Below are positions 49,866-63,758 of a DNA stretch of 64,000 bases, piece after piece. The stretch's first letter is position 1. Each line of letters begins with the position of its first letter. The notes beneath the pieces were generated by a model. The model saw nothing but the letters and a program-made list of their open reading frames with translations, searched no databases and was not told where the DNA came from. Made by a program: the position numbers and the translations under genes. Origin of the DNA: Jejubacter calystegiae (GTDB lineage Bacteria; Pseudomonadota; Gammaproteobacteria; Enterobacterales; Enterobacteriaceae); the NCBI RefSeq assembly GCF_005671395.1, contig NZ_CP040428.1, positions 2,046,001 through 2,110,000 of the forward strand, given 5' to 3'.

Positions 49866-50228
49866 ATGGATTACGAATTTCTGCGTGATATCACCGGCAC
49901 GGTAAAAGTGCGGATGTCGATGGGCCATGAGGCGGTCGGCCACTGGTTCAATGAAGAGGTGAAAGAGGATTTGGCGCTGCTGGACGAGGTGGAGCAGGCT
50001 CTGCTTGCGGTCAAAGGCAGCGAACGTCAATGGCAGCGCAACGGCCACGAGTACACCCTGTGGCTGGACGGTGAAGAGGTAATGGTGCGGGCCAATCAGC
50101 TCGACTTTTCTGGCGACGAGATCGAAGAAGGAATGAGCTACTACGATGAAGAGAGTCTGACCCTGTGCGGGGTCGAGGATTTTCTTCAGGTGTTGCGCGC
50201 TTACCGACAGTTTGTGATGGGGCGTTAG
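49866..50228 (+). CDS. yacL: UPF0231 family protein YacL
   Basis: Conserved enterobacterial protein of unknown function, 120 residues as in E. coli. It starts [43 protein letters not shown] and is acidic, soluble and without membrane segments. Last core gene recognised in the window: in E. coli speE-speD follow, but here the next gene is a convergent sensor kinase whose stop codon overlaps the yacL stop by two bases. Confidence 0.95.
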
Positions 50229-53200
50229 TCCCGTATCTGCCGTTGGGCGCTGCGCATTTGTGCGATAAAGGCGTTAACCAGGTCAGGCATCTCCGCCTGA
50301 CTGACGATGCCCCCGGCGTAGGATGCCGGCAGATTTTCCATAATCTGGCAGAGCCTCCAGCTTTGCTGCATGCGTAACAGGTTCCAGCTATTTTTCAGGC
50401 GGTGCGCTGTTTGGGAGAGGAGCTGTAGGTCGGTGTACTGTTCCTGAAGACGCCGCAGATCCTCATCGATAGCCTGGTCTATTTGTGACAGCATCAGTGT
50501 CACCAGTGATGAATCTTCCCCTGCCAGCGCGCGTAGCTCCTCAAGATTCGGGCTGTTTCCTTCTGTCTCTGGCAGCGTATCCAGTGCCTGACGCAGTCCG
50601 GCTTCACTGAGTGGCTTGCGCAGCAACCGATCCATACCGGCATGCCTTGCCTCCTCCTCTTCACGAGGCAGCGCGCTGGCGGTACATCCCAGTATCATCG
50701 CGGGCAACGTAACGCGTCCCAGCAGGTTGTGTAGCACCACGGAGGCGCACAACTGGTAGCCGCTCATTCCCGGCATCTGGCAGTCGGTGATCAAAACATC
50801 GAAACTTTCGTGCTCCAACCGGGCCAGCGCCTCCTGTCCGCTCAGACAACTCTCGACCTGGTGACCGGCGCGTTCCAGTTGTCGCGTCATCACCGTCAGG
50901 TTAGCCGGAAAATCATCCGCCAGAAGAATGCGCCGCGGCGCCAGTATGGCGTCAGACGCCAGGGATAGGGGCTCTTTCTCTGGTATCTGGCAGGGGACGA
51001 CGGGTAGTGTAACGCTGACCGTTGTCCCCTTACCTTCGGTGCTCTCTATCGTGATTTCCCCGTTCATCAGGGCAATGATTTGATGGCAGATAGCCAGACC
51101 CAGACCGCTGCTTTGGGGAACGGAGCTATCCAGTTGGAACCAGGGCTGGAACAGTATCGGCAGCTGTGCTTCAGGGATGCCGATACCGGTGTCGGTAACC
51201 TCTATTTTAAGGATGGATTCCTGGTAACGACAGATCAGGGAGACTTCACCCTCATGGGTATATTTGATCGCGTTGCCTGCCAGATTGACAATAATCTGGT
51301 TGAGTCGGGAACGGTCGCACAGACACCAGAGTTCGTCGGGAATGGCATTATCGTGGTGCCAGGTCAGTCCCTTTTCCTGGGCGCTACGGGCAAAGATAGC
51401 TGCGGTTGTCTCCATGATTTCGTGCAGATTATGCGGGGCAGGGGCGAGGTGTAGCTCGCCAGCTTCGATACGCGATAAATCCAGAATATCCCCGACCAGA
51501 TCGCGTAGCGTTAGCGCTGCCTGCCAGGCGACCTCCAGAGAAGGATGGGGCTTACGCTCTATCTCCAGCATGCCCAGTATCGCGTTAAGCGGGGTACGGA
51601 TATCGTGACTCATACGAGCAAGGAAAGCCGACTTCTCTTCGCTGGCTTTTTCCGCCTGGCGTAGTGACTGGCTTAGCGCCTCTTCGAGCGCCGCTTTTTC
51701 ACTGATATCGAGCCAGCCTCCGACCATCCCCTGGGCGATCCCCTGGGAATTGCTATAGCCTGCAATCCAGCACAGGAGCGTGTTTTGGCCCAGGGTGACC
51801 TCCCGTAATATTGGCCGGGTGTCGTAGAGCAATGTCTGGCGCGTGGACGGATCCAGCCAGTGAAAGGGTCCCTGTTCAATCTCTCCGAGCAACTCCCCGG
51901 ATTCAAATCCGTCAGGGATAAATGGCGAATCATGGAAGGCCTGGTTCATGCTGCGTATCCGACCAATGGGATCGCAGAAAAACAGGGGGATAGGCGCGCT
52001 GTTGAGCAGCGTTTGCCAGAGGTTAAGCGTATCACTGAGCTGATTATACTGTTGGATTCGGATTTTATTTTTACTTCTTTCGCGTGCGATAAACAGCACA
52101 GATCCTGACGCTGCCAGCAGCGCTAACATAGCTAACAGGCTGGTCCACAGGTGGTGCTGGTCAGCAGTGATGGGGGGGACTTCGATCGTCCATCGGGTTT
52201 TACTGACCTGGATATCGGTATCGGTCATGGCGCTAAGCCGGTTACGTACCTGCTGTATCTTCGGGCTGTCGTCCGCAGTGGTAACAAACCAGAGTGGTAC
52301 CTGAGGTAAGTCGATAGCGCTCAGGCTCAGGTGCCGGTTATTGGCGCGGCGTAGCAGGTAGTCCAGGCTCCATGCGTCGCCGATCAGCCCATCTGCACCG
52401 CCAGCTTCAACCAGGCTGATCCCCTGTCGGAGAGTATTGACCTTCACAATATCCGGATGCTGAGCAACGATCGCGGGGAGGGTGGCCAGCGGTGAACCTC
52501 TGATGATGGCCAGTCTTTTGCCCTGCAATGATGTCAGTGAGCCATTCAGCGGATGGCGTGCGTGACTGACAATCCCCCAGGAGAGAGTATCAAAGCGCAC
52601 TGCCTGATCCGTGGGAAGCGGCGTCGTTTCGCCCATTAGCAGGTCCACTTTCCCCAGGTTCAGCAGTTGTCTGGCCTGCTTTTTGTCACTGACTGGCGTG
52701 ACGGTCAGCCGGTAAAAAGGAGGGGGAAACTGCGAGTTGAGCAGATCCCGCCACATGCCGCGGATAGCGTTGCCGTGGATAATCCGCGGTTCAGGCGCGT
52801 AAAGTAGCGCAACTCTTAACGATACGGGCTCCTTTCCGGGGGGAGGATTACGCTGACTAATCACGCTGTTGGCCGGAAGCTGCCATTTATGTTCCAGCCA
52901 GCGTGCGTCCTGTTGGCGCAGGTTATCGATACGCTGGTTTAATGCCGCCAGCCGATCCGCATGGTTCGCCGCCACCCAGAGAGAGTAGCGAAGGGGGGGA
53001 TGGGCGCTTAACTCCCGCCAGGGAAGGGTTGATTGCGGCACCTGCTGGCGGAATTGCGCAATGGCGAATTCGGGGGCGATCAGGCCGCTGGCCTCTCCAC
53101 GAATGATGCGCCGCACGCTATCGTAGATCGTCGTCCCGGCCGGTATCACGTTGAGTGGTTTGCCCTGCGATGACGTTTGTCGTTGCGTCAATATCTCTGG

Positions 53201-53560
53201 AGATGCCAGTAGGGTGCTCCCGGGGCGATAATTTCCCAGTACTGCAAGGGGAAATACCAGTATCGGCTGGCTGGAAAGTAGCCCCTGACGGCTGAAGTCC
53301 TGCGCGGATATCACCAGATCGAGTTTGCCAGCATTCAGCGCCGCCAGCGCCTCTTCACTGTGGGTATAGTTTGTTATCTGAGGAGGATTCTTCTCCTGTT
53401 GCCACAGTAGTGTGATTTCATCCCTGAGTACGCTTTGTTGTTGCTCATTATCGCTAAATGGTGGGGAGTAGCTCAGAATGCCCACGCGCTCTACGGCATC
53501 GGCGAACGCGGAAAACAAAAAACAGAACAGCAGTGCCCGCACCACCGTGCCTGTGCGCAT
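50225..53560 (-). CDS. Hybrid sensor histidine kinase of the BvgS/EvgS family
   Basis: Inner-membrane phosphorelay kinase, 1111 residues from the ATG at 53560; a TTG two codons earlier overlaps the preceding stop. Domain order: signal peptide (1-24), two periplasmic solute-binding (Venus flytrap) domains (about 25-240 and 247-455), one membrane segment (about 471-493), a PAS domain (about 515-620), HisKA with phospho-acceptor H652 (SHDIRTP), ATPase ([27 protein letters not shown]), a receiver with D926 (LITDCQMPG) and an Hpt domain with H1053 (TAHRLKNSW). All phosphotransfer residues are present. The cognate EvgA-like regulator lies 2 bases upstream. The ligand is unknown; being downstream of chitinase genes suggests, but does not show, a sugar or pH cue. 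Confidence 0.92.
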
Positions 53561-53562
53561 CG

Positions 53563-54174
53563 TCAACTATCCAACCCGATTTTTTGCGCGTACTGATACA
53601 GCTCGAATTCTGATGTGGCGCCAAGCTTACGCATAGCACTGTTTTTTTGTGTGCTGATAGTCTGTTTGGAACGATTTACCAGACTACTGATTTCATTGAC
53701 CGTCATTCCACGCAGGAGCAGGCGTACAACCTCGCTCTCTTTGGGCGAGAGGGCCTCTTTAACCGAAGGCGCCGTTTTCCCCGCTCTGGTGCGTGTTGGC
53801 ATTTCACTGGTTTTCAGCGCAGCGATCAGTTCCGTCGACAGGCTGTTTTTGCTCAGTACCGCGTGGACGCCCAGGCGTGCCAGAGAGGCCAGCAGTGCCG
53901 GATTGGTTATCATGGTAACCACTATCACCGTACTGTCTGGCCACTGGCGTCGCAGATGTTGAATAAGCGCCCTGCCGTCAGGGTAGCGCTCTCCGGGCAT
54001 ACTGAAATCGGTAATAATAATATCCGCCGGTTGCTGTTGCAGTTTGTCGATCAACTGGTCAGTGGTGCTGGCTTCGTGCAGTACCTCATAACGCTCAGAG
54101 TGGGCCTGCAATAGCGTGCGTAACCCCAATAAATAGACGGGATGATCGTCGGCGATCAATACCGTTTTACGCAT
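53563..54174 (-). CDS. NarL/LuxR-family response regulator (EvgA/BvgA/RcsB type)
   Basis: Cytoplasmic transcription regulator, 203 residues, and the likely partner of the adjacent hybrid kinase. The receiver has D9/D10, phospho-acceptor D56 (IITDFSMPG), T87 and K109 in the RcsB-like spacing. The LuxR-type helix-turn-helix covers about residues 140-197 (LSPKESEVVRLLLRGMTVNEISSLVNRSKQTISTQ). Its stop is followed within 2 bases by the kinase ATG, so the two are co-translated. Regulated genes are not known; the chitinase-LPMO operon upstream is a reasonable candidate. Confidence 0.92.
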   Translation of the reverse strand: MRKTVLIADDHPVYLLGLRTLLQAHSERYEVLHEASTTDQLIDKLQQQPADIIITDFSMPGERYPDGRALIQHLRRQWPDSTVIVVTMITNPALLASLARLGVHAVLSKNSLSTELIAALKTSEMPTRTRAGKTAPSVKEALSPKESEVVRLLLRGMTVNEISSLVNRSKQTISTQKNSAMRKLGATSEFELYQYAQKIGLDS

Positions 54175-54269
54175 GTTGGCCTGTCTCCTGACGTCTGTAT
54201 TCGATTGAACACAAAGTATAGCCAGGGAGCTCAGTCGGAGCGGGTCGGGCGGCTGTTATTGCTGAAAAA

Positions 54270-54791
54270 TTAGCGCATTTTGTTCAGAATCTCTTTTTTA
54301 CCCTGTCGTAAGTAGTTGGCGACAGCGGCAATGTGAATAACCAGGAGTACGCCCAGCGCCATACAGCTGATACGGTGTACCTTAAAAAAGAACTGATTAA
54401 CTTCCGGTGATGAGAGAGGCTGTGGTACAGGGATAAGCCAAAACAGATGATAGCCTTTCTCCAGCATCAGAAAACCGCTGATTAAGACAATAAATATCGT
54501 CAGATAAAAGATCTCATGAATAAATGTCACCAGCTGTTTTTTGCGCGTCGAGATATACGATGGCCAGCCGACGGCGGGTCTGAAGAAACGCCATACGAAG
54601 CGGATAACCATAACGGGAGTGGCTATAGTGGCAAGTGACATATTTAGTTCAGAGAAAAAATCAAACCAGCGGCTTCCATCTAAACTATGAAGAATATATC
54701 CCATGATGGTTACGTAAATAATAATAGCAGCAACGCCCCAATGCAATAAGCGTGATAAAAAATCATAACGACAGGAAACGGCAGAAGTCAT
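54270..54791 (-). CDS. Cytochrome b561-family membrane protein
   Basis: Four-helix inner-membrane protein, 173 residues, of the bacterial di-heme b561 (CybB) family. Histidines at likely ligand positions are H17 (SRLLHWG), H139 (KVHRISCMA) and H153 (LVIHIAAVA), with H92 in helix 3. Recalled alignment with E. coli CybB suggests the second-helix histidine (IHVSCG there) is absent (NMSLATIA here), so one heme pair may be incomplete. It lies between two response-regulator genes, an unusual place, so it may act in redox sensing rather than respiration (inference). Lower GC than the core genes. Confidence 0.8.
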   Translation of the reverse strand: MTSAVSCRYDFLSRLLHWGVAAIIIYVTIMGYILHSLDGSRWFDFFSELNMSLATIATPVMVIRFVWRFFRPAVGWPSYISTRKKQLVTFIHEIFYLTIFIVLISGFLMLEKGYHLFWLIPVPQPLSSPEVNQFFFKVHRISCMALGVLLVIHIAAVANYLRQGKKEILNKMR

Positions 54792-54863
54792 TTTTATTTA
54801 AAAGCCTCGAAGGATGACGGTAATCATATTTATTGCAGGTGACTCTCTGGCACCTGCGTAATA

Positions 54864-55547
54864 TCAAATAGCAATATCAAACATTTGAGTTTGAGACAGC
54901 AGAAAAAAGAGATGACAGTCTGATGCTACTCCCAGCTTTTCCATAGCGCGTAGTTTATGGGCGCTGACGGTTTTGTTGCTCAGGTTGAGCTTTCCGGAGA
55001 TCGCCGCAGGTGATAAGCCTTTACACAGCAGACGCAAGACGTCGATCTCTCGCGAGCTGAGCTCCCGTTCGCCCCGGGTAGCAGGCTGAAGCAGAGAGTT
55101 CAGTAAACTTTTTTCGATATAGGTCTCGTTATTCATCATGGCGGTGATAGTTCGCTCCAGCACCTTTTCACAGGTGTTATGGTTAATATAGCCAGAAGCG
55201 CCAGAATCCAGCGCGCTTCGGATGATGTTGGCGTTGTTATAAGGTGACAGCACCACTATTTTTAGCTGTGGGTATTGATTTCTGAGCCATTTTATTAGCG
55301 TAATACCATCTAGTTCGCTTAACGGCGTCTGGCTTTTATAAGTATTAAGGCTAAAACCCAATAGCAGGATATCTACGGGGTTATTGGCCAGCAGGTTTAA
55401 CAATTCGGGGGGAGAGGCGGCATCACCCACAATATTAATGGTATGATGGTTGAAGTTCGGATTGATTTCCGGAAGGTTTTTCACCATCAATACTACACCG
55501 CGACGAATAATAGTATGCTCATCAGCAACGACGATATGGGTTGTCAT
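54864..55547 (-). CDS. LuxR-family regulator with degenerate receiver domain
   Basis: 227 residues: an N-terminal receiver-like domain and a C-terminal LuxR helix-turn-helix (about 168-222, LSSREIDVLRLLCKGLSPAAISGKLNLSNKTVSAHKLRAMEKLGV). The acidic pocket D9/E10 is kept and S101 fits the switch position. The phospho-acceptor Asp is replaced by Gly (G64 in ILLLGFSL) and the conserved Lys by His (H123 in GYINHN). It cannot be phosphorylated in the normal way, so it is an atypical or pseudo-receiver. It is upstream of the b561 and phosphorelay genes, same strand. GC is lower than the neighbours. Confidence 0.85.
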   Translation of the reverse strand: MTTHIVVADEHTIIRRGVVLMVKNLPEINPNFNHHTINIVGDAASPPELLNLLANNPVDILLLGFSLNTYKSQTPLSELDGITLIKWLRNQYPQLKIVVLSPYNNANIIRSALDSGASGYINHNTCEKVLERTITAMMNNETYIEKSLLNSLLQPATRGERELSSREIDVLRLLCKGLSPAAISGKLNLSNKTVSAHKLRAMEKLGVASDCHLFFLLSQTQMFDIAI

Positions 55548-55731: not shown

Positions 55732-57102
55732 TTAGGCCAGTGAGGACCATAGAATATCTTTGATCTCAGGAACATCAGGAGCCCAGGTTTCGGTATAGGA
55801 GGGATGATCCTGAACGCATTTCCAGAGTTTACCTTTGTAGGTGACGATGTCCCCCTTCTTATAGGCCTCGTTGAGTTTCCAGGTCGGATAGTTGCCGCCG
55901 CTATCCTGACTCTTTGTTTGTATCGTTAGCACATTGCTGGGCACTGAGAGGCGGTTATGGCTATCCAGTGCGGCAACAAAATAGCGATACCGGGTATCGG
56001 GCGTCAGCCCTGTATCATTCCAGGTCTGGCTACTACCGGAAACCCGCTGTACCTCTTTACCTTCTCTGTAGATGATGTAACTGGCGATCGCCGCTTCCGG
56101 TAGCGAGGCGCCCCACATAAGACTGACGCTGGTGGCGGTTTCCCCCATACTGTGCAGATTACCCGGTGCCGTTGGCGGCGTATCCTCGCCCCCTAGGGTG
56201 GTCACCATAATGGTATTACCCGGTGCGGATTCGGCGCCATTTTCATCAATGGCGCTGACAAAATAGGTATAGCGGGTGTTTGGCTCCACGCTCTCATCCG
56301 TCCAGGTCAGCAGTGATGCTGCAACGTCGATGGTGGTAATACCGTTACGTGTAATGCGATAGGTGGTAATGGGGGAAGCGCCCGATGAGGCATTCCAGGC
56401 AAGCTTCACGCTCTTACCGGTTACCGTTTCTGTCCGTAGATTACCGGGAGGGGTGGGCAAATGATCCGGAATGTCTGATTTGACGAAATCGAGATCGATA
56501 ACCTGATAAAAAGCATTACCGGTATCGGCAACTTCCCAGACGCCAAGCAGTACATGATATCCGCTGCGTTCCGGTAGCCTGATACTGTGTTTCGTTGGGT
56601 TAGCGGGTTTCAGGGCCGCGTTATGCTGCCAGAAGGGATCCAGCGTTGACTCCACCTGGGTAAAGGGCTTCGCTTCAAACTGATCGCGGGACAGAGGACG
56701 CGTCGAATCCCAGCCGGGTTTGGTAATAAAGTAGTTCCAGCGCCGGGTAAGGTGCGCAGCCGTAAAAAACCAGGAGATATCGATAGCATCGCCGCTGGCG
56801 ACCTGTTTGCGCGGCCAGTTTTTCGTCGGGTCATCCAGAACCCGTCCGGCTTCCTGCCCGGCACTGGCGATTTTTCCGTCAGCCGGTGGAACGGCATTGG
56901 GAACATCATTAGGGGCGACTTTATCCGACAGACCGCCCTGGGTCTCCGGGAAGAATTTCCCCCCTTCACACTGATTGAGCGCACCTTCATCAATAAGGCC
57001 CATCTGGCGGGCGTTCCAGGCGCGTGAACCCGGATCGTAAACGTGTCCATGGTAGGGCGTTGGGCTTAATTGATCGTCAAAGTCTGATTGATACTGTGCC
57101 AT
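55732..57102 (-). CDS. AA10 lytic polysaccharide monooxygenase with FnIII and chitin-binding modules, no signal peptide
   Basis: Copper enzyme expected to cleave crystalline chitin oxidatively. From the ATG at 57102 (GGAG 7 bases upstream) it has 456 residues; an earlier in-frame start overlaps the preceding gene. Domains: AA10 (about 18-207), two FnIII domains (about 217-305 and 312-400) and a C-terminal CBM5/12 (WKLNEAYKKGDIVTYKGKLWKCV). Active-site residues H18 (YHGHVYDPGSRAW), H117 (FFTAAHLTRRW) and F198 (AFYQVIDLDF) are present. The histidine brace needs a free N-terminal His, yet the 17 residues before H18 (MAQYQSDFDDQLSPTPY) are hydrophilic and not a Sec or Tat signal. Processing or an unusual export route is implied. 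41 bases downstream of the chitinase gene. Confidence 0.9.
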   Translation of the reverse strand: MAQYQSDFDDQLSPTPYHGHVYDPGSRAWNARQMGLIDEGALNQCEGGKFFPETQGGLSDKVAPNDVPNAVPPADGKIASAGQEAGRVLDDPTKNWPRKQVASGDAIDISWFFTAAHLTRRWNYFITKPGWDSTRPLSRDQFEAKPFTQVESTLDPFWQHNAALKPANPTKHSIRLPERSGYHVLLGVWEVADTGNAFYQVIDLDFVKSDIPDHLPTPPGNLRTETVTGKSVKLAWNASSGASPITTYRITRNGITTIDVAASLLTWTDESVEPNTRYTYFVSAIDENGAESAPGNTIMVTTLGGEDTPPTAPGNLHSMGETATSVSLMWGASLPEAAIASYIIYREGKEVQRVSGSSQTWNDTGLTPDTRYRYFVAALDSHNRLSVPSNVLTIQTKSQDSGGNYPTWKLNEAYKKGDIVTYKGKLWKCVQDHPSYTETWAPDVPEIKDILWSSLA

Positions 57103-57143
57103 ATGTCTCTCCAGAAACGGTTTATGATGGGTTGTTCTCGTTA

Positions 57144-60100
57144 TTACTGACGCTTCCACAGTGAGGTCGCTTTATCCGGACTCCAGAAGGCATTAGAGGT
57201 GTGCTGCATCACGCACAGCCAGGTGACGCCCTGCCAGCTTACTTTGCTGTTATCCGGGTACCATATATTGCCGTCCTGCCATGGGCTGTCTGGCTCGGTC
57301 GAGCCGCTGGTGCGAGCGGTCACCGCCGCGCTCAGCCCGGAGCTGACGCCCTGCATATTGGTGGCTTTTATCTGGTAGTTATAGGTCTGGTTCGGACTCA
57401 GTCCGGTATCGGTAAAGGGGGGCGCGGTTACGCTCTTAATGGCGGAGCCATCCCGGTATAGCGTGTAGTCGCGAACCTGGGTACGGGAAGGGGTCCAGTC
57501 CAGGGTGACGGAGTGGCTGGTAAAGCTGGTGACCCTGAGTCCGGTGGGAATAGCGGGCGGGGTTGGCTCTGGATCTGGCCCGGGTCCTGGAATCTCTCCT
57601 TCAGAGATCCAGCCATAACGCTTAATAAACTCCCAGTTATAGGGTTCACGATTGATATCGCTACCGGTATCCCAGTTGATGGACCAGGTCATCACGCCTT
57701 TAATGCCCAGACCCTGGCTATCGAGCCGCTGTAGCGCATTTTTCACGTGATCCGGATTAATGACATAACCGGTGCGTGCGGCATCATTGTTGGCGGGCAG
57801 GCCGATAGCGAATTTTTGGTGGGGAATCTTAATAAAGCCGCGGGTGCCGGTCACGATGCTCTCAGTCAGGTAGTAGAGAAACTCTTCCTTCAGTTCATCA
57901 TCATCCTGTTTCAGATACCCGACACCATCGATCCAGAGCCCATCTCCTCCCTGATTGTAATACTGCGGGGCAATAAAGTTGTAGTCACCCTCGAGTCTCT
58001 GGATATAGGGTTCATAGTTTTGCCCGGTACGCAGATAGGGAAACTCTGGTGCCATACTGATAATGAAGTTTTTCCCTTTCTGGCGGTAAAAGTCCTTCAC
58101 CTCTTTTAATGCCTGGGGAATCACTGTGGCATTATCTTTAGCGCTGATAGCATTTTGTTCCAGATCGATATCCAGCCCATCGAAGCCATAGGTTTCCGTA
58201 AGCTGGATAATGCGATCTTTTAACGCCGCTTTATCGCTATTTTGTAGCTCAATATGCGCATCGGCACCGCCCAGTGAGATCAGCACGGCGCGTCCCTGGG
58301 TGTGAAGCGTCTCTATCTGGCGGCGGAATTCCTCTGCTGTTCCCTTATAAGGTGCAAAATCAGGGATATGATCGCTCTGAGAGGCTTTCATAAAGGCGAT
58401 GGCAATAACATTGTAAGCCGTCGGGATCTCGGTGAGTTCCAGATTTTTAAAGTACCCACCCCGGTAACCGCTGCCACCGTGAGTTTCCTGCGGCCAGTTA
58501 TGCCAGAAGCCCATCACAATTTTCTTCTGGCTGATATCCGGGAACTGGCCGTTGTTATCAGACTGATCGGCACTGATTCTGACGGTAACCCGGTTACTGG
58601 CGGGTGACTGGTTACCTTTATTATCAGACGCAATCACCGTGTACTGATATTCCGTTCCGGTAGAGACGGCGCTATCGATATAGCTGTTATTCACCGTATT
58701 GGTAAGAATTGCCTGTTGGTTGCGATACAGGGTAAAAGTAAGACCCGAGCTGCGGCTGTTAACGGACCAGGTTAATTCTACCCGATGGGCTGGGGCCCCT
58801 GTCTGGGTAGCTGAGAGGTGTGGGGCGGGCAGCTCAACCGGTGGCTGTGATTGCTCCATCACTGAAAAGGCCACCAGAGGGGAGGTATGCGTTTTGCCCT
58901 GACGGTCAGTGGCGATAGCGGCAAGTGTATGCTGGCCGGTATTAAGTTGTGATATTTCTCCGTCATAATAGACTTCATCCTGAGTATTGCGTTTGGTTTT
59001 TGAGGCCGTTGCCGGATACTGTTGATTACCAACTTTGAAATAAACTGACGTAGGTGATTCCTGGGCTCGAACCGCTGCCCGAACCTTGATCGGAATTGAG
59101 GGGGGGAAGGCTTCGCCATCGCCCGGGGCAATGATGTTCAGACTGATGGGCTTGTCGATAATATCAGGAGAATCGTAAGAGAAAACCTGATCGATTTTAT
59201 CCGCCAGTATTGAGGTGGCATCGTGGCACTCGACCAGCTTGCCGCCATGTACGGTGGTATTGGTGGTCAGGTTTTGCAGATCGCCGTAGGCAGTCCAGAT
59301 AATCACGCCCGCCAGATTATTATCGACGACATATTTCGCTTTTTCGCCGACTGACCTTTCATTATCATAGCTCAGGAAATATTTCCCTTTGGTCAGATAC
59401 GGGACTTTGGCGTTTTCATCCCAGTGATATTGCCAGCCGTCATACTCCCCCTCGCGGGTTTTTTGAACAATCATGGCGTAATTAGGGGTGCCATCCCATA
59501 CGTTTAATGGCCAGTTGTCAAAGTCACCACAGGTGGAAATAGAACCATCGGGAGGAACGTTCTGTACCGACTTCACCGTTTTTTGATTTAATGCCGCGGT
59601 GCCGTCGGTAATAACCCCACGGCCATAAAAAGCGACGCCGGCATTAATTTTGCTTTCTTTTACCCCCCACTTTTTTAGCGCTCGAATCGTTTTGTCTAAT
59701 GACGAGGCTTCATCGCCACCTTCCTGACCAGGATAGTTATATAATGGAGAGTTATGTCCGGCAATATTTGACCATCCACCATTAATATCATAAGTCATGA
59801 TATTAAAGTAATCCATCGATTCATTGAGACGATGCCATTCAAATCCTTCGAGTAGTTTAATGGCGGTTGAGGTGGCAGCCGTAATGAGATGATCATTGCC
59901 AATTTCTTTTCGGATATCATCGACCAGAGTTGTGAAGTATTTAAAATCATCCGGGCTATGCTCGATAATATTCATGCCCAGACCATTTGGAAACTCCCAG
60001 TCCAGGTCGATCCCGTCAAAACCCATATTGATAAGTCTGCGACACTCAGCGACAAGTTTTTTTCGTTTTACAGGGTCTTTAGCCACGGACGGGAAGTGTT

Positions 60101-60620
60101 TGGACATACTCCAACCGCCCAGGGAGGCCATGACCTTAACGCCATACTGTTTTGCTTTTCTGAGCAGGCCTGGCGGGCCGTCAGGGTCTTCTATGGCCAG
60201 CGGAAAGTCGCCCGATTCGCCGGTGTTAGTATTTATCCAACCGCCAGAGTCGGCTGCACGATAACCCTGGTTCCAGGCATGGCTGCCTTCCGAGATATAC
60301 CACAGAATTTGTTGGGCCCCAAATAAGATATAGCGGTCCCAGCTGCTATAAATATCGTCATGAATCAGGGGCGCTGGTTCCTGAATCTGATCGGGCAGGT
60401 GTATTTGCTTGTTGCGGTAATCAGCGCTGTGTAATGAACCGTCATGTGCTAACCCAAAAAATGAAAAATTCAGGATAGTGTATTTGGAGAAATCAATATT
60501 AAGTTGGTTATATCCCCCCTTAGGAACCAGGTTGGGTATTTCCTTCCATGCATCGTATTGTGTGACGTATCCGATTACTTGCTTCTGATGTTTCCGAAGA
60601 GAGCCTGTTGCTTTATTCAT
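57144..60620 (-). CDS. Multidomain chitinase with two GH18 catalytic domains, no signal peptide
   Basis: 1158 residues from the ATG at 60620 (AGGAG 8 bases upstream). The first GH18 barrel (about 13-480) has the DxxDxDxE motif at D202-E209 (DGIDLDWE) and a SLGGWSMS strand. A bacterial Ig-like/FnIII linker region (about 490-685) follows. The second GH18 barrel (about 697-1020) has the motif at D814-E821 (DGLDIDLE) with SLGGAD. A Pro-rich linker (PGPGPDPEPTPP), an FnIII domain (about 1037-1112) and a CBM5/12 chitin-binding module (NSKVSWQGVTWLCVMQHTS) complete it. Both active sites look intact. The N-terminus (MNKATGSLRKHQKQVIGYV) runs straight into the barrel without a signal peptide, like the leaderless Serratia ChiB and ChiC. 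First gene of an operon with the LPMO. Confidence 0.93.
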   Translation of the reverse strand: MNKATGSLRKHQKQVIGYVTQYDAWKEIPNLVPKGGYNQLNIDFSKYTILNFSFFGLAHDGSLHSADYRNKQIHLPDQIQEPAPLIHDDIYSSWDRYILFGAQQILWYISEGSHAWNQGYRAADSGGWINTNTGESGDFPLAIEDPDGPPGLLRKAKQYGVKVMASLGGWSMSKHFPSVAKDPVKRKKLVAECRRLINMGFDGIDLDWEFPNGLGMNIIEHSPDDFKYFTTLVDDIRKEIGNDHLITAATSTAIKLLEGFEWHRLNESMDYFNIMTYDINGGWSNIAGHNSPLYNYPGQEGGDEASSLDKTIRALKKWGVKESKINAGVAFYGRGVITDGTAALNQKTVKSVQNVPPDGSISTCGDFDNWPLNVWDGTPNYAMIVQKTREGEYDGWQYHWDENAKVPYLTKGKYFLSYDNERSVGEKAKYVVDNNLAGVIIWTAYGDLQNLTTNTTVHGGKLVECHDATSILADKIDQVFSYDSPDIIDKPISLNIIAPGDGEAFPPSIPIKVRAAVRAQESPTSVYFKVGNQQYPATASKTKRNTQDEVYYDGEISQLNTGQHTLAAIATDRQGKTHTSPLVAFSVMEQSQPPVELPAPHLSATQTGAPAHRVELTWSVNSRSSGLTFTLYRNQQAILTNTVNNSYIDSAVSTGTEYQYTVIASDNKGNQSPASNRVTVRISADQSDNNGQFPDISQKKIVMGFWHNWPQETHGGSGYRGGYFKNLELTEIPTAYNVIAIAFMKASQSDHIPDFAPYKGTAEEFRRQIETLHTQGRAVLISLGGADAHIELQNSDKAALKDRIIQLTETYGFDGLDIDLEQNAISAKDNATVIPQALKEVKDFYRQKGKNFIISMAPEFPYLRTGQNYEPYIQRLEGDYNFIAPQYYNQGGDGLWIDGVGYLKQDDDELKEEFLYYLTESIVTGTRGFIKIPHQKFAIGLPANNDAARTGYVINPDHVKNALQRLDSQGLGIKGVMTWSINWDTGSDINREPYNWEFIKRYGWISEGEIPGPGPDPEPTPPAIPTGLRVTSFTSHSVTLDWTPSRTQVRDYTLYRDGSAIKSVTAPPFTDTGLSPNQTYNYQIKATNMQGVSSGLSAAVTARTSGSTEPDSPWQDGNIWYPDNSKVSWQGVTWLCVMQHTSNAFWSPDKATSLWKRQ

Positions 60621-62951: not shown

Positions 62952-63758
62952 ATGACAACCAAAATCATTCCCTTGTCATCTCGGGTAACATTTCATTCAG
63001 AATGTTCCTGCCTGAAAGTTGAAAATGCACAGGATGTTTATTTGACGCCAGGTGAACGTAAGCTGTTGGAGCTGGTTCTCGAAGGAAAAGGAAGTAAAGA
63101 AAATGTTTTTGAGCAAATCTGGCTCAGTCGGGGAATCATTGTTGGCGAGTCGAGTTATCATCAGCTGATTAAGACTCTGCGCCGTAAGTTGCAAAGTGCG
63201 GGGTTACCCGCCACGGTAATTAAAACGCTACCGCGCTTTGGTCTCATCTATGTCCGACCTGATGATGGTGCGCCATATGTGGAAGCAGATGTGGAGAAAA
63301 TAGATGAGGAAAGTATGCCGTCCGGTATTGCGCAATCATCAATGGAGGCATCAGTGGATATGGATGACCGCAGCCAGGTAGCATTTCCGTCTGAAGTTTC
63401 TGTTACCCCGATAACGGATAAGCACGAAGGAATGGGACGTCATGTGTGTCTTCCCAGATGGCTGATCGTCGCCTCCTGTACGCTGGCAGTTCTGTTACCG
63501 TTGTTGGTGCAGTATCTCTGGATATCCGGAGAAAGCAATTTCGCAGATACGTTGCAGGCCAGGGGAATCACTTATCATGCGACCAGTGAGCAATTACTTA
63601 TTCCCAAAACGCTGGAAGATATCGTTGGAAAACCAGTAAGCGGAGTGCGGCATATTTACCTTGCAGCTAATGGGCCAAAGGTCTGGATTGCTCAGTGTCA
63701 TAAAGAGATAAATCAGGAAAAAAACCAATGTCATTACAAAAACATATCTATTTATTGA
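62952..63758 (+). CDS. Membrane-bound winged-helix regulator (ToxR/CadC/MarT-like)
   Basis: 268 residues: an N-terminal OmpR-type winged helix (about 1-104, LTPGERKLLELVLEGKGSKENVFEQIW, then SSYHQLIKTLRRKLQSAG and IKTLPRFGLIYV), a long acidic linker, one membrane segment (169-191, PRWLIVASCTLAVLLPLLVQYLW) and a 75-residue periplasmic domain with two cysteines (C249, C260). This is a one-component transmembrane transcription activator. Its 3' end overlaps the next small membrane-protein gene by 31 bases, as in MarT/FidL, YqeI/YqeJ and VtrA/VtrC pairs. Low GC suggests acquisition. Targets unknown. Confidence 0.85.
   Translation: MTTKIIPLSSRVTFHSECSCLKVENAQDVYLTPGERKLLELVLEGKGSKENVFEQIWLSRGIIVGESSYHQLIKTLRRKLQSAGLPATVIKTLPRFGLIYVRPDDGAPYVEADVEKIDEESMPSGIAQSSMEASVDMDDRSQVAFPSEVSVTPITDKHEGMGRHVCLPRWLIVASCTLAVLLPLLVQYLWISGESNFADTLQARGITYHATSEQLLIPKTLEDIVGKPVSGVRHIYLAANGPKVWIAQCHKEINQEKNQCHYKNISIY

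Follow-up and report, generated by a model that had tools for sequence, protein, structure and literature searches.

Introduction

Type 10 secretion systems (T10SS), represented by Serratia ChiWXYZ, the Yersinia entomophaga cassette and Salmonella ChiH/ChiP, employ a phage-type holin together with a peptidoglycan hydrolase. In Y. entomophaga, chitinases and chitin-binding proteins are freed by a holin/endolysin/spanin cassette in a subpopulation of cells (PMC10847048, PMC10101115, PMC10847046), and almost all of the enriched cargo carries no known signal (PMC10847048). Lytic action has likewise been demonstrated for the Serratia system (PMC10847048, PMC10101115, PMC10847046), and non-lytic export has been argued for the T10SS of Salmonella (PMC13284979). 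Leaderless cargo is not universal, since Serratia ChiA and the lytic polysaccharide monooxygenase (LPMO) Cbp21 carry Sec leaders (PMC5778951). Here we analyze an operon of Jejubacter calystegiae that encodes a chitinase and an LPMO of the AA10 family, both devoid of a recognizable export leader. The operon lies in a window of 64,000 nucleotides, which corresponds to positions 2,046,001-2,110,000 of one single 5.18 Mb contig, NZ_CP040428.1.

The activity of LPMOs needs a free N-terminal histidine, which is usually produced by signal peptidase. The branch of AA10 proteins that includes the LPMO of the window is leaderless, so that this route to the free histidine is closed. The explanation that we favor, and regard as on balance probable, is lytic release of a T10SS-like kind followed by a protease cut that exposes His1 of the AA10 domain. 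The release half would be a new example of the known lytic type 10 kind, and the maturation half, if demonstrated, would be new for LPMOs as far as the open literature goes: no report of protease maturation of leaderless AA10s was found among the papers listed there, a weak negative given that subscription papers fall outside this scope.

Results

A leaderless chitinase and a leaderless LPMO encoded in one operon

Two genes on the minus strand, separated by a gap of 41 bases, form the operon, with the chitinase gene (57144-60620) preceding the AA10 LPMO gene (55732-57102). The features of the two genes are as follows.

57144-60620, minus strand: double-GH18 chitinase of 1158 amino acids (aa), with Pfam matches to GH18 (238 bits in two stretches), fn3 and a C-terminal CBM5/12
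59280-60578, minus strand: first GH18 domain of the chitinase, ChiD-like (PF00704, residues 15-447)
57954-58448, minus strand: core part of the second GH18-type barrel (PF23916, residues 725-889), corresponding to the half joined to AA10 in the Erwinia fusions
55732-57102, minus strand: AA10 LPMO of 456 aa counted from the ATG, composed of a 17-aa extension, AA10, fn3, fn3 and CBM5/12
57052-57102, minus strand: 17-residue N-terminal extension of the LPMO, MAQYQSDFDDQLSPTPY, ending in Pro-Tyr before His18
57049-57051, minus strand: codon of the catalytic His18 (His1 of the mature enzyme), an invariant column in alignments A1 and A2
56491-57051, minus strand: AA10 catalytic domain (PF03067)
55768-55884, minus strand: CBM5/12 of the LPMO (PF02839, 44.5 bits)

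The LPMO_10 domain scores 133.6 bits against a Pfam family cut-off of 23, and fn3 is recognized by Pfam in two stretches of the same protein. The chitinase is the sole GH18 protein detected genome-wide; its CBM5/12 match is slightly under the Pfam cut-off, and its match to the NCBIfam family ChiD_Serratia is below the family cut-off. The preliminary description, which was made from the sequence alone, had placed a leaderless chitinase and LPMO here and assigned chitin-binding modules and fibronectin type III domains to both, and these assignments are borne out by the Pfam matches and by the analysis of leaders that follows. A GGAGAG ribosome site precedes the ATG of the LPMO gene, the chitinase start is also equipped with a plausible ribosome site, and use of an alternative LPMO start, the GTG at 57159, would lengthen the protein by 19 residues.

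The presence of leaders was judged by Kyte-Doolittle hydropathy and by the limits of the reading frames, in place of SignalP. From stop to stop, the LPMO frame encodes only 479 aa (475 aa in the GTG-start form), and the chitinase frame 1164 aa versus the 1158-aa protein. The best mean hydropathy over 11 residues within the first 45 is 0.05 for the LPMO, counted from the GTG, and 0.28 for the chitinase; the median of the same measure is 2.30 in 88 AA10s outside the leaderless branch. No pair of arginines occurs in the first 45 residues of either protein (again from the GTG for the LPMO), and the chitinase barrel begins within about 13 residues of its start. Because the frames are too short and the hydropathy is low, a start-site error concealing a leader, one of the objections foreseen in the preliminary description, is ruled out. 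By hydropathy and frame limits, both proteins thus lack a Sec, Tat or lipoprotein leader, as expected of type 10 cargo. The relatives discussed below are called leaderless on the grounds of their score branch, their hydropathy and start sites picked by eye.

A conserved junction precedes the catalytic histidine

In the LPMO of the window, the N-terminal extension is followed by HGHVYDP. His18, His117 and Phe198 (ATG numbering), the last being the axial Phe within an NAFYQ motif, are invariant in 26-row alignments of branch members, which supports the earlier proposal that residue 18 is the catalytic His and that the 17 residues ahead of it would have to be removed to complete the histidine brace. 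In the AlphaFold2 model of the LPMO, which starts at Ala2 and has a mean pLDDT of 93.3, residues 2-4 and 6-14 fall below 50 and the first strand begins immediately after the catalytic His; the extension is accordingly predicted to be disordered. The solved structure nearest to the model is 3UAM (BpAA10_A; rmsd 1.4, 49% identity in the structural match), a protein of the same AA10 branch with a profile score of 258.9 bits. Its brace His, numbered 19 in published tables, is preceded by S-P-R, that is, by Arg at position -1, unlike the Tyr of the window LPMO; the accessible parts of the two papers carry no comment on removal of this extension (PMC5094447, PMC4144037).

The leaderless branch was delimited by a profile score of at least 150 bits in a set consisting of 80 of 194 confirmed relatives plus loci from further genomes, and includes 53 distinct AA10s after the removal of two duplicate own-genome rows. 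Immediately before the catalytic His (position -1), Arg is found in 35 of these, Phe in 7, Tyr in 4, Met and Lys in 2 each, and Leu, Ala and Cys in 1 each, so that R/K accounts for 37/53 and F/Y/M/L for 14/53. Position -2 is occupied by Pro (23) or Leu (22) in 45 of the 53, and R/K, which makes up 70% of the residues at -1, is absent from -2. From -3 outward, the extension is variable. Outside the branch, where a hydrophobic leader is the usual case, 50 of the 88 AA10 rows have Ala at -1. Arg and Lys are the classic P1 residues of trypsin-like proteases, Phe, Tyr, Met and Leu those of chymotrypsin-like ones, and Pro or Leu is well accepted at P2. The pattern of P/L followed by R/K/F/Y/M/L would therefore fit protease subsites better than packing. 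The maturation problem raised in the preliminary description for this one enzyme is real and wider than anticipated, as the two-residue junction is conserved across the 53 relatives.

The residue class at -1 was defined before wider searching from an initial 34 loci, which form 27 clusters at 85% identity, all 27 of them fitting. Of the 19 new distinct members subsequently added, 17 fit the class, the misses being L200 (Ala) and L190 (Cys, in a truncated Sodalis-like gene; L numbers denote loci), and so do 9 of the 10 new members less than 60% identical to the training set. At a background of 0.25 to 0.33, the chance of at least 17 fits among 19 is 6e-9 to 5e-7, figures that relatedness makes too small. 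In a maximum-likelihood tree, the junction switches between the R/K and F/Y/M/L classes at least six times, or five times without the two Met rows. Direct exposure of the His by methionine removal misfits most members, in which the extensions comprise at least 5 residues by the chosen starts; the exceptions are L005 and L184, with Met before the His.

In Actinobacteria (L023-L027), the extension, measured from the closest start judged likely (that of L024 is unclear), is only about 5 to 9 residues long and has Arg before the His. Genomes of one genus (L202, L193, L194) harbor two or more nearby AA10 genes, and several of these have long Cys/Pro-rich extensions ending in GDLF or GDLY before the His.

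CBP21 and other Sec-exported AA10s share the fold and the brace residues with the LPMO of the window, but signal peptidase frees their His. The Sec-type AA10s of Xenorhabdus, Proteus and Providencia resemble it in having a few residues between the likely leader cut (placed by eye) and the His, often ending in R or K; unlike it, they possess a hydrophobic leader, and some of their pro-stretches end in N, H or L.

Chitinase-AA10 fusions in Erwinia

In three Erwinia species, AA10 is found in one polypeptide with the second-type GH18 and its CBM5 (Pfam domains were checked for L006), and these fusion ORFs match the window chitinase at 3e-168 to 2e-173. In all three, ALR precedes a catalytic His that lies inside the chain. 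In L010, no ATG, GTG or TTG occurs within 43 codons upstream of the His, so that an active LPMO at this locus would need proteolysis, and an internal start near the His yielding a free AA10 is rejected there. Possible internal starts exist in the other two, at -10 (ATG) in L006 and at -2 and -23 (TTG) and -32 (GTG) in L011. The window chitinase joins the same type of GH18 to a ChiD-like one, the modules being combined differently between lineages.

Lysis genes beside leaderless AA10s

As the preliminary description had noted, no holin/endolysin genes are present in the 64-kb window: the PF05106 holin and the PF00959 phage lysozyme have no match there, compared with 2 and 4 matches, respectively, in the whole genome. 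Its choice of the Serratia holin/endolysin route as the comparison was apt. Its suggestion that a new release system may be needed is not sustained, as sister operons carry a holin and/or a lysozyme after the LPMO gene, the own genome has a lysis cassette with leaderless chitin-type cargo, and lytic release has been published for Y. entomophaga and also for Serratia (PMC10847048).

On plasmid pHS1 of Sodalis praecaptivus (L001), a holin and a lysozyme come after a chitinase remnant and the AA10 gene. Chitinase, AA10, holin and lysozyme stand in this order at L186 and L187 (two genomes of one genus) and, with the chitinase fused to AA10, in Erwinia psidii (L010) and E. mallotivora (L011). A plasmid of Enterobacter huaxiensis (L002) encodes chitinase, AA10 and holin, with a lysozyme 3.3 kb past the holin. 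The fusion gene of Erwinia sp. 198 (L006) precedes a lysozyme, and no holin was found there; the AA10 gene of Pantoea allii (L009) precedes a holin, and a lysozyme was not found. No structural phage gene was recognized near L001, L010 and L011, where the holin-lysozyme pair is kept with the cargo. One leaderless AA10 of a Sodalis-like genome (L188, 4875-9806) is embedded in a phage lysis region, flanked on one side by a lysozyme and an HP1-type holin and on the other, by eye, by Rz-like spanin and terminase-like genes.

The scan for linkage used a few lysis-gene seed sequences and covered distinct AA10 genes flanked on either side by 3 kb or more. A same-strand lysis-gene match within 3 kb was found for 9 of 45 leaderless AA10 genes versus 0 of 68 others (Fisher p 1.5e-4, uncorrected for relatedness); the nine comprise eight relatives' loci and the prophage locus L188. 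Twelve genes among the 68 others (Xenorhabdus and one enterobacterial bin; e.g. L036-L038, L043, L044) were not counted as linked, the phage-type lysozyme in their vicinity being encoded on the opposite strand. Chitinase-AA10 pairs with no lysis genes found, like that of the window, occur in Pseudomonas saxonica, Yersinia pekkanenii and Serratia plymuthica (L012-L014).

A lysis cassette in the J. calystegiae genome, and the search for other secretion routes

The preliminary description had proposed a genome-wide check for holin/peptidase cassettes. A cassette at 5.041-5.046 Mb consists of a Q antiterminator, a lysozyme, an esterase, a GH20 hexosaminidase, a lambda-type holin and an Rz-type spanin. 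The esterase and the GH20 enzyme are both leaderless by eye, and the cassette carries GH20 in place of the chitinase/AA10 pair. The cassette sits between housekeeping-type genes, with phage tail gene remnants after it, and we read the locus as a decayed prophage that retained its lysis genes with chitin-type enzymes between them. About 2.9 Mb of the contig separates it from the window operon, for which it is a plausible release cassette. A second holin-lysozyme pair at 3.21 Mb is in a prophage-like region, and the surroundings of the lysozyme or holin matches at 0.49, 3.21 and 4.31 Mb are prophage-like by eye. The only Peptidase_M15_4 match, the candidate for a ChiX-type peptidase, is at 0.458 Mb among phage tail-like genes (by eye) and was rejected. 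The GH108 muramidase, as in the Salmonella ChiH/ChiP type, and Phage_holin_8 gave no match in the own genome and none in control genomes either, so these negatives are not proof of absence.

The genome resembles those with described type 10 systems in encoding a holin and peptidoglycan hydrolase pair (at 5.041-5.046 Mb, and also in the 3.21 Mb prophage-like region) and in the spanin of its cassette, and sister loci place such a pair beside the cargo. It differs in that the endolysin is a phage lysozyme (PF00959) rather than a ChiX peptidase or ChiP muramidase, in the distance between cassette and operon, and in that the window LPMO is leaderless whereas Serratia Cbp21 has a Sec leader.

Type II secretion, also suggested earlier as a route to check, found no support. 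There are two secretin matches genome-wide, one beside aroK/aroB in apparent hof genes and one in an apparent Tad locus, as judged from the neighboring ORFs; given these settings, no GspD-type secretin and hence no type II route is seen.

Discussion

Lytic, type-10-like release combined with proteolytic maturation outside the cell would account for most of the observations, namely the absence of leaders, the intact brace, the genomic lysis cassette, the linkage at sister loci and the conserved junction, all of them read from sequence. Both proteins would fold in the cytoplasm as cargo of a phage-derived lytic route, and a holin and a lysozyme, perhaps those of the 5.04 Mb cassette, would open the cell and let the chitinase and the LPMO leave. 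The AA10 protein would be a precursor whose short extension, predicted to be disordered, terminates in the P1 residue of a protease site, Tyr in the window LPMO and Arg in the majority of relatives. An extracellular S1-type protease, trypsin- or chymotrypsin-like and of host or bacterial origin, would then cut the Tyr17-His18 bond, and the resulting amine would complete the copper site.

A broader form of this proposal is possible, if short of probable: leaderless AA10s set free by phage-type lysis, whether from chromosomal cassettes or from prophages, would be widespread LPMO zymogens, activated outside by a digestive protease (e.g. of the arthropod gut) at [P/L]-[R/K/F/Y/M/L] | His, and the Erwinia fusions would be polyproteins cut at the same site. 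If the junction is indeed a protease site, these proteins are proenzymes, and their copper site becomes complete only once they have been released. The producing cell would then be shielded from an oxidative enzyme, and the occurrence of LPMOs as type 10 cargo would be explained. Of relevance to biochemists, AA10s of the leaderless branch expressed with their native N-terminus would probably be inactive.

Several observations weigh against this account. No lysis gene adjoins the window operon, and no protease is linked to it. The GH20 cassette is not conserved: a GH20 relative (E 1e-60) was found in 1 of 391 other genomes of the family, without adjoining lysis genes, and the idea of a conserved GH20 lysis cassette was rejected. 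For 36 of the 45 leaderless AA10 genes, no lysis gene was found within 3 kb, although the few seeds may have missed other holins, and the actinobacterial members showed no lysis link that could be found. Eight of the nine lysis-linked loci belong to one subclade of the tree, so the nine are not independent and represent few independent events. The junction rule is violated by L200, with Ala at -1, and Ala is also at -1 in the second AA10 of L193 (no hydrophobic stretch) and the third of L202 (leader unclear), both at about 125 bits; the Met at -1 of L005 and L184 is possibly a start codon. The hydropathy ranges of the leaderless and the other AA10s overlap. The rows with Ala at -1 and the members without a lysis link, in particular, speak against a single rule.

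Among other explanations, it is somewhat unlikely that both proteins owe their release to the ordinary induction of prophages instead of a dedicated type 10 system. The genome does contain several prophage-like regions with lysis genes (0.49, 3.21 and 4.31 Mb, by eye) and a second leaderless AA10 gene at the end of a phage tail-like gene run at 4.276 Mb (by eye), but L001, L010 and L011 retain the holin-lysozyme pair and the cargo with no structural phage gene recognized nearby. An unrecognized translocator exporting both folded proteins without lysis is very improbable. It would be consistent with the lack of a lysis gene adjoining the operon, with the leaderless AA10s of actinobacteria and with the non-lytic export argued for Salmonella (PMC13284979); however, no common targeting segment is apparent, the AA10 extension being variable except for its last two residues and the chitinase barrel starting within about 13 residues.

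Maturation, too, could be explained otherwise. An AA10 protein without a free His may still bind chitin, and lytic release might deliver a chitin-binding anchor that is never processed, its junction residues being kept for folding or for packing against the copper face. The chain record of 3UAM has 20 residues ahead of the brace His, and the review table lists no metal for this structure (PMC5094447). We nevertheless consider an unprocessed anchor unlikely, because brace residues invariant in 26 rows would be unnecessary for mere binding, the extension is predicted to be disordered in the model of the window LPMO, the four listed 3UAM chains hold only 193-200 of 216 residues, and the residue pattern would better suit protease subsites. 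It is also doubtful that the cut is made by a protease which the bacterium dedicates to it, whether cytoplasmic, periplasmic or co-released, in place of an outside digestive one: the junction Arg of L023-L027 occurs in actinobacteria, which need not meet an animal gut, but at least six switches between the basic and F/Y/M/L classes would be odd for one enzyme, and no protease gene was recognized beside the AA10 genes in the relatives' stretches, which were read by eye and not systematically.

Neighboring genes and further observations

The second leaderless AA10 of the genome (4275891-4276508; L004, L096) has MSNITPF before HGHAYDP and ends a run of phage tail-like genes (by eye). The IMG/VR contig L180 carries the same AA10. 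Among annotated phages, it is matched by 8 records, from Listeria and Enterococcus only and all below 60% identity.

Beside the lysis cassette, positions 5038893-5039918 (L098, 5894-6919) encode a leader-bearing protein (by eye) with DUF3472 and a StcE-type beta-sandwich domain.

On the 3' side of the LPMO gene and on the same strand, positions 50225-55547 of the window encode a LuxR-type regulator, a cytochrome b561, a second LuxR-type response regulator and a hybrid sensor kinase (Pfam). On the strand opposite to the operon, positions 62952-63758 encode a protein near the operon that combines a winged helix with a hydrophobic segment; it is CadC/ToxR-like by eye, and its PF00486 match is below the cut-off. 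The chitinase operon of Salmonella is controlled by the ToxR-like regulator ChiR (PMC13284979), to which the winged-helix protein of the window offers a weak parallel.

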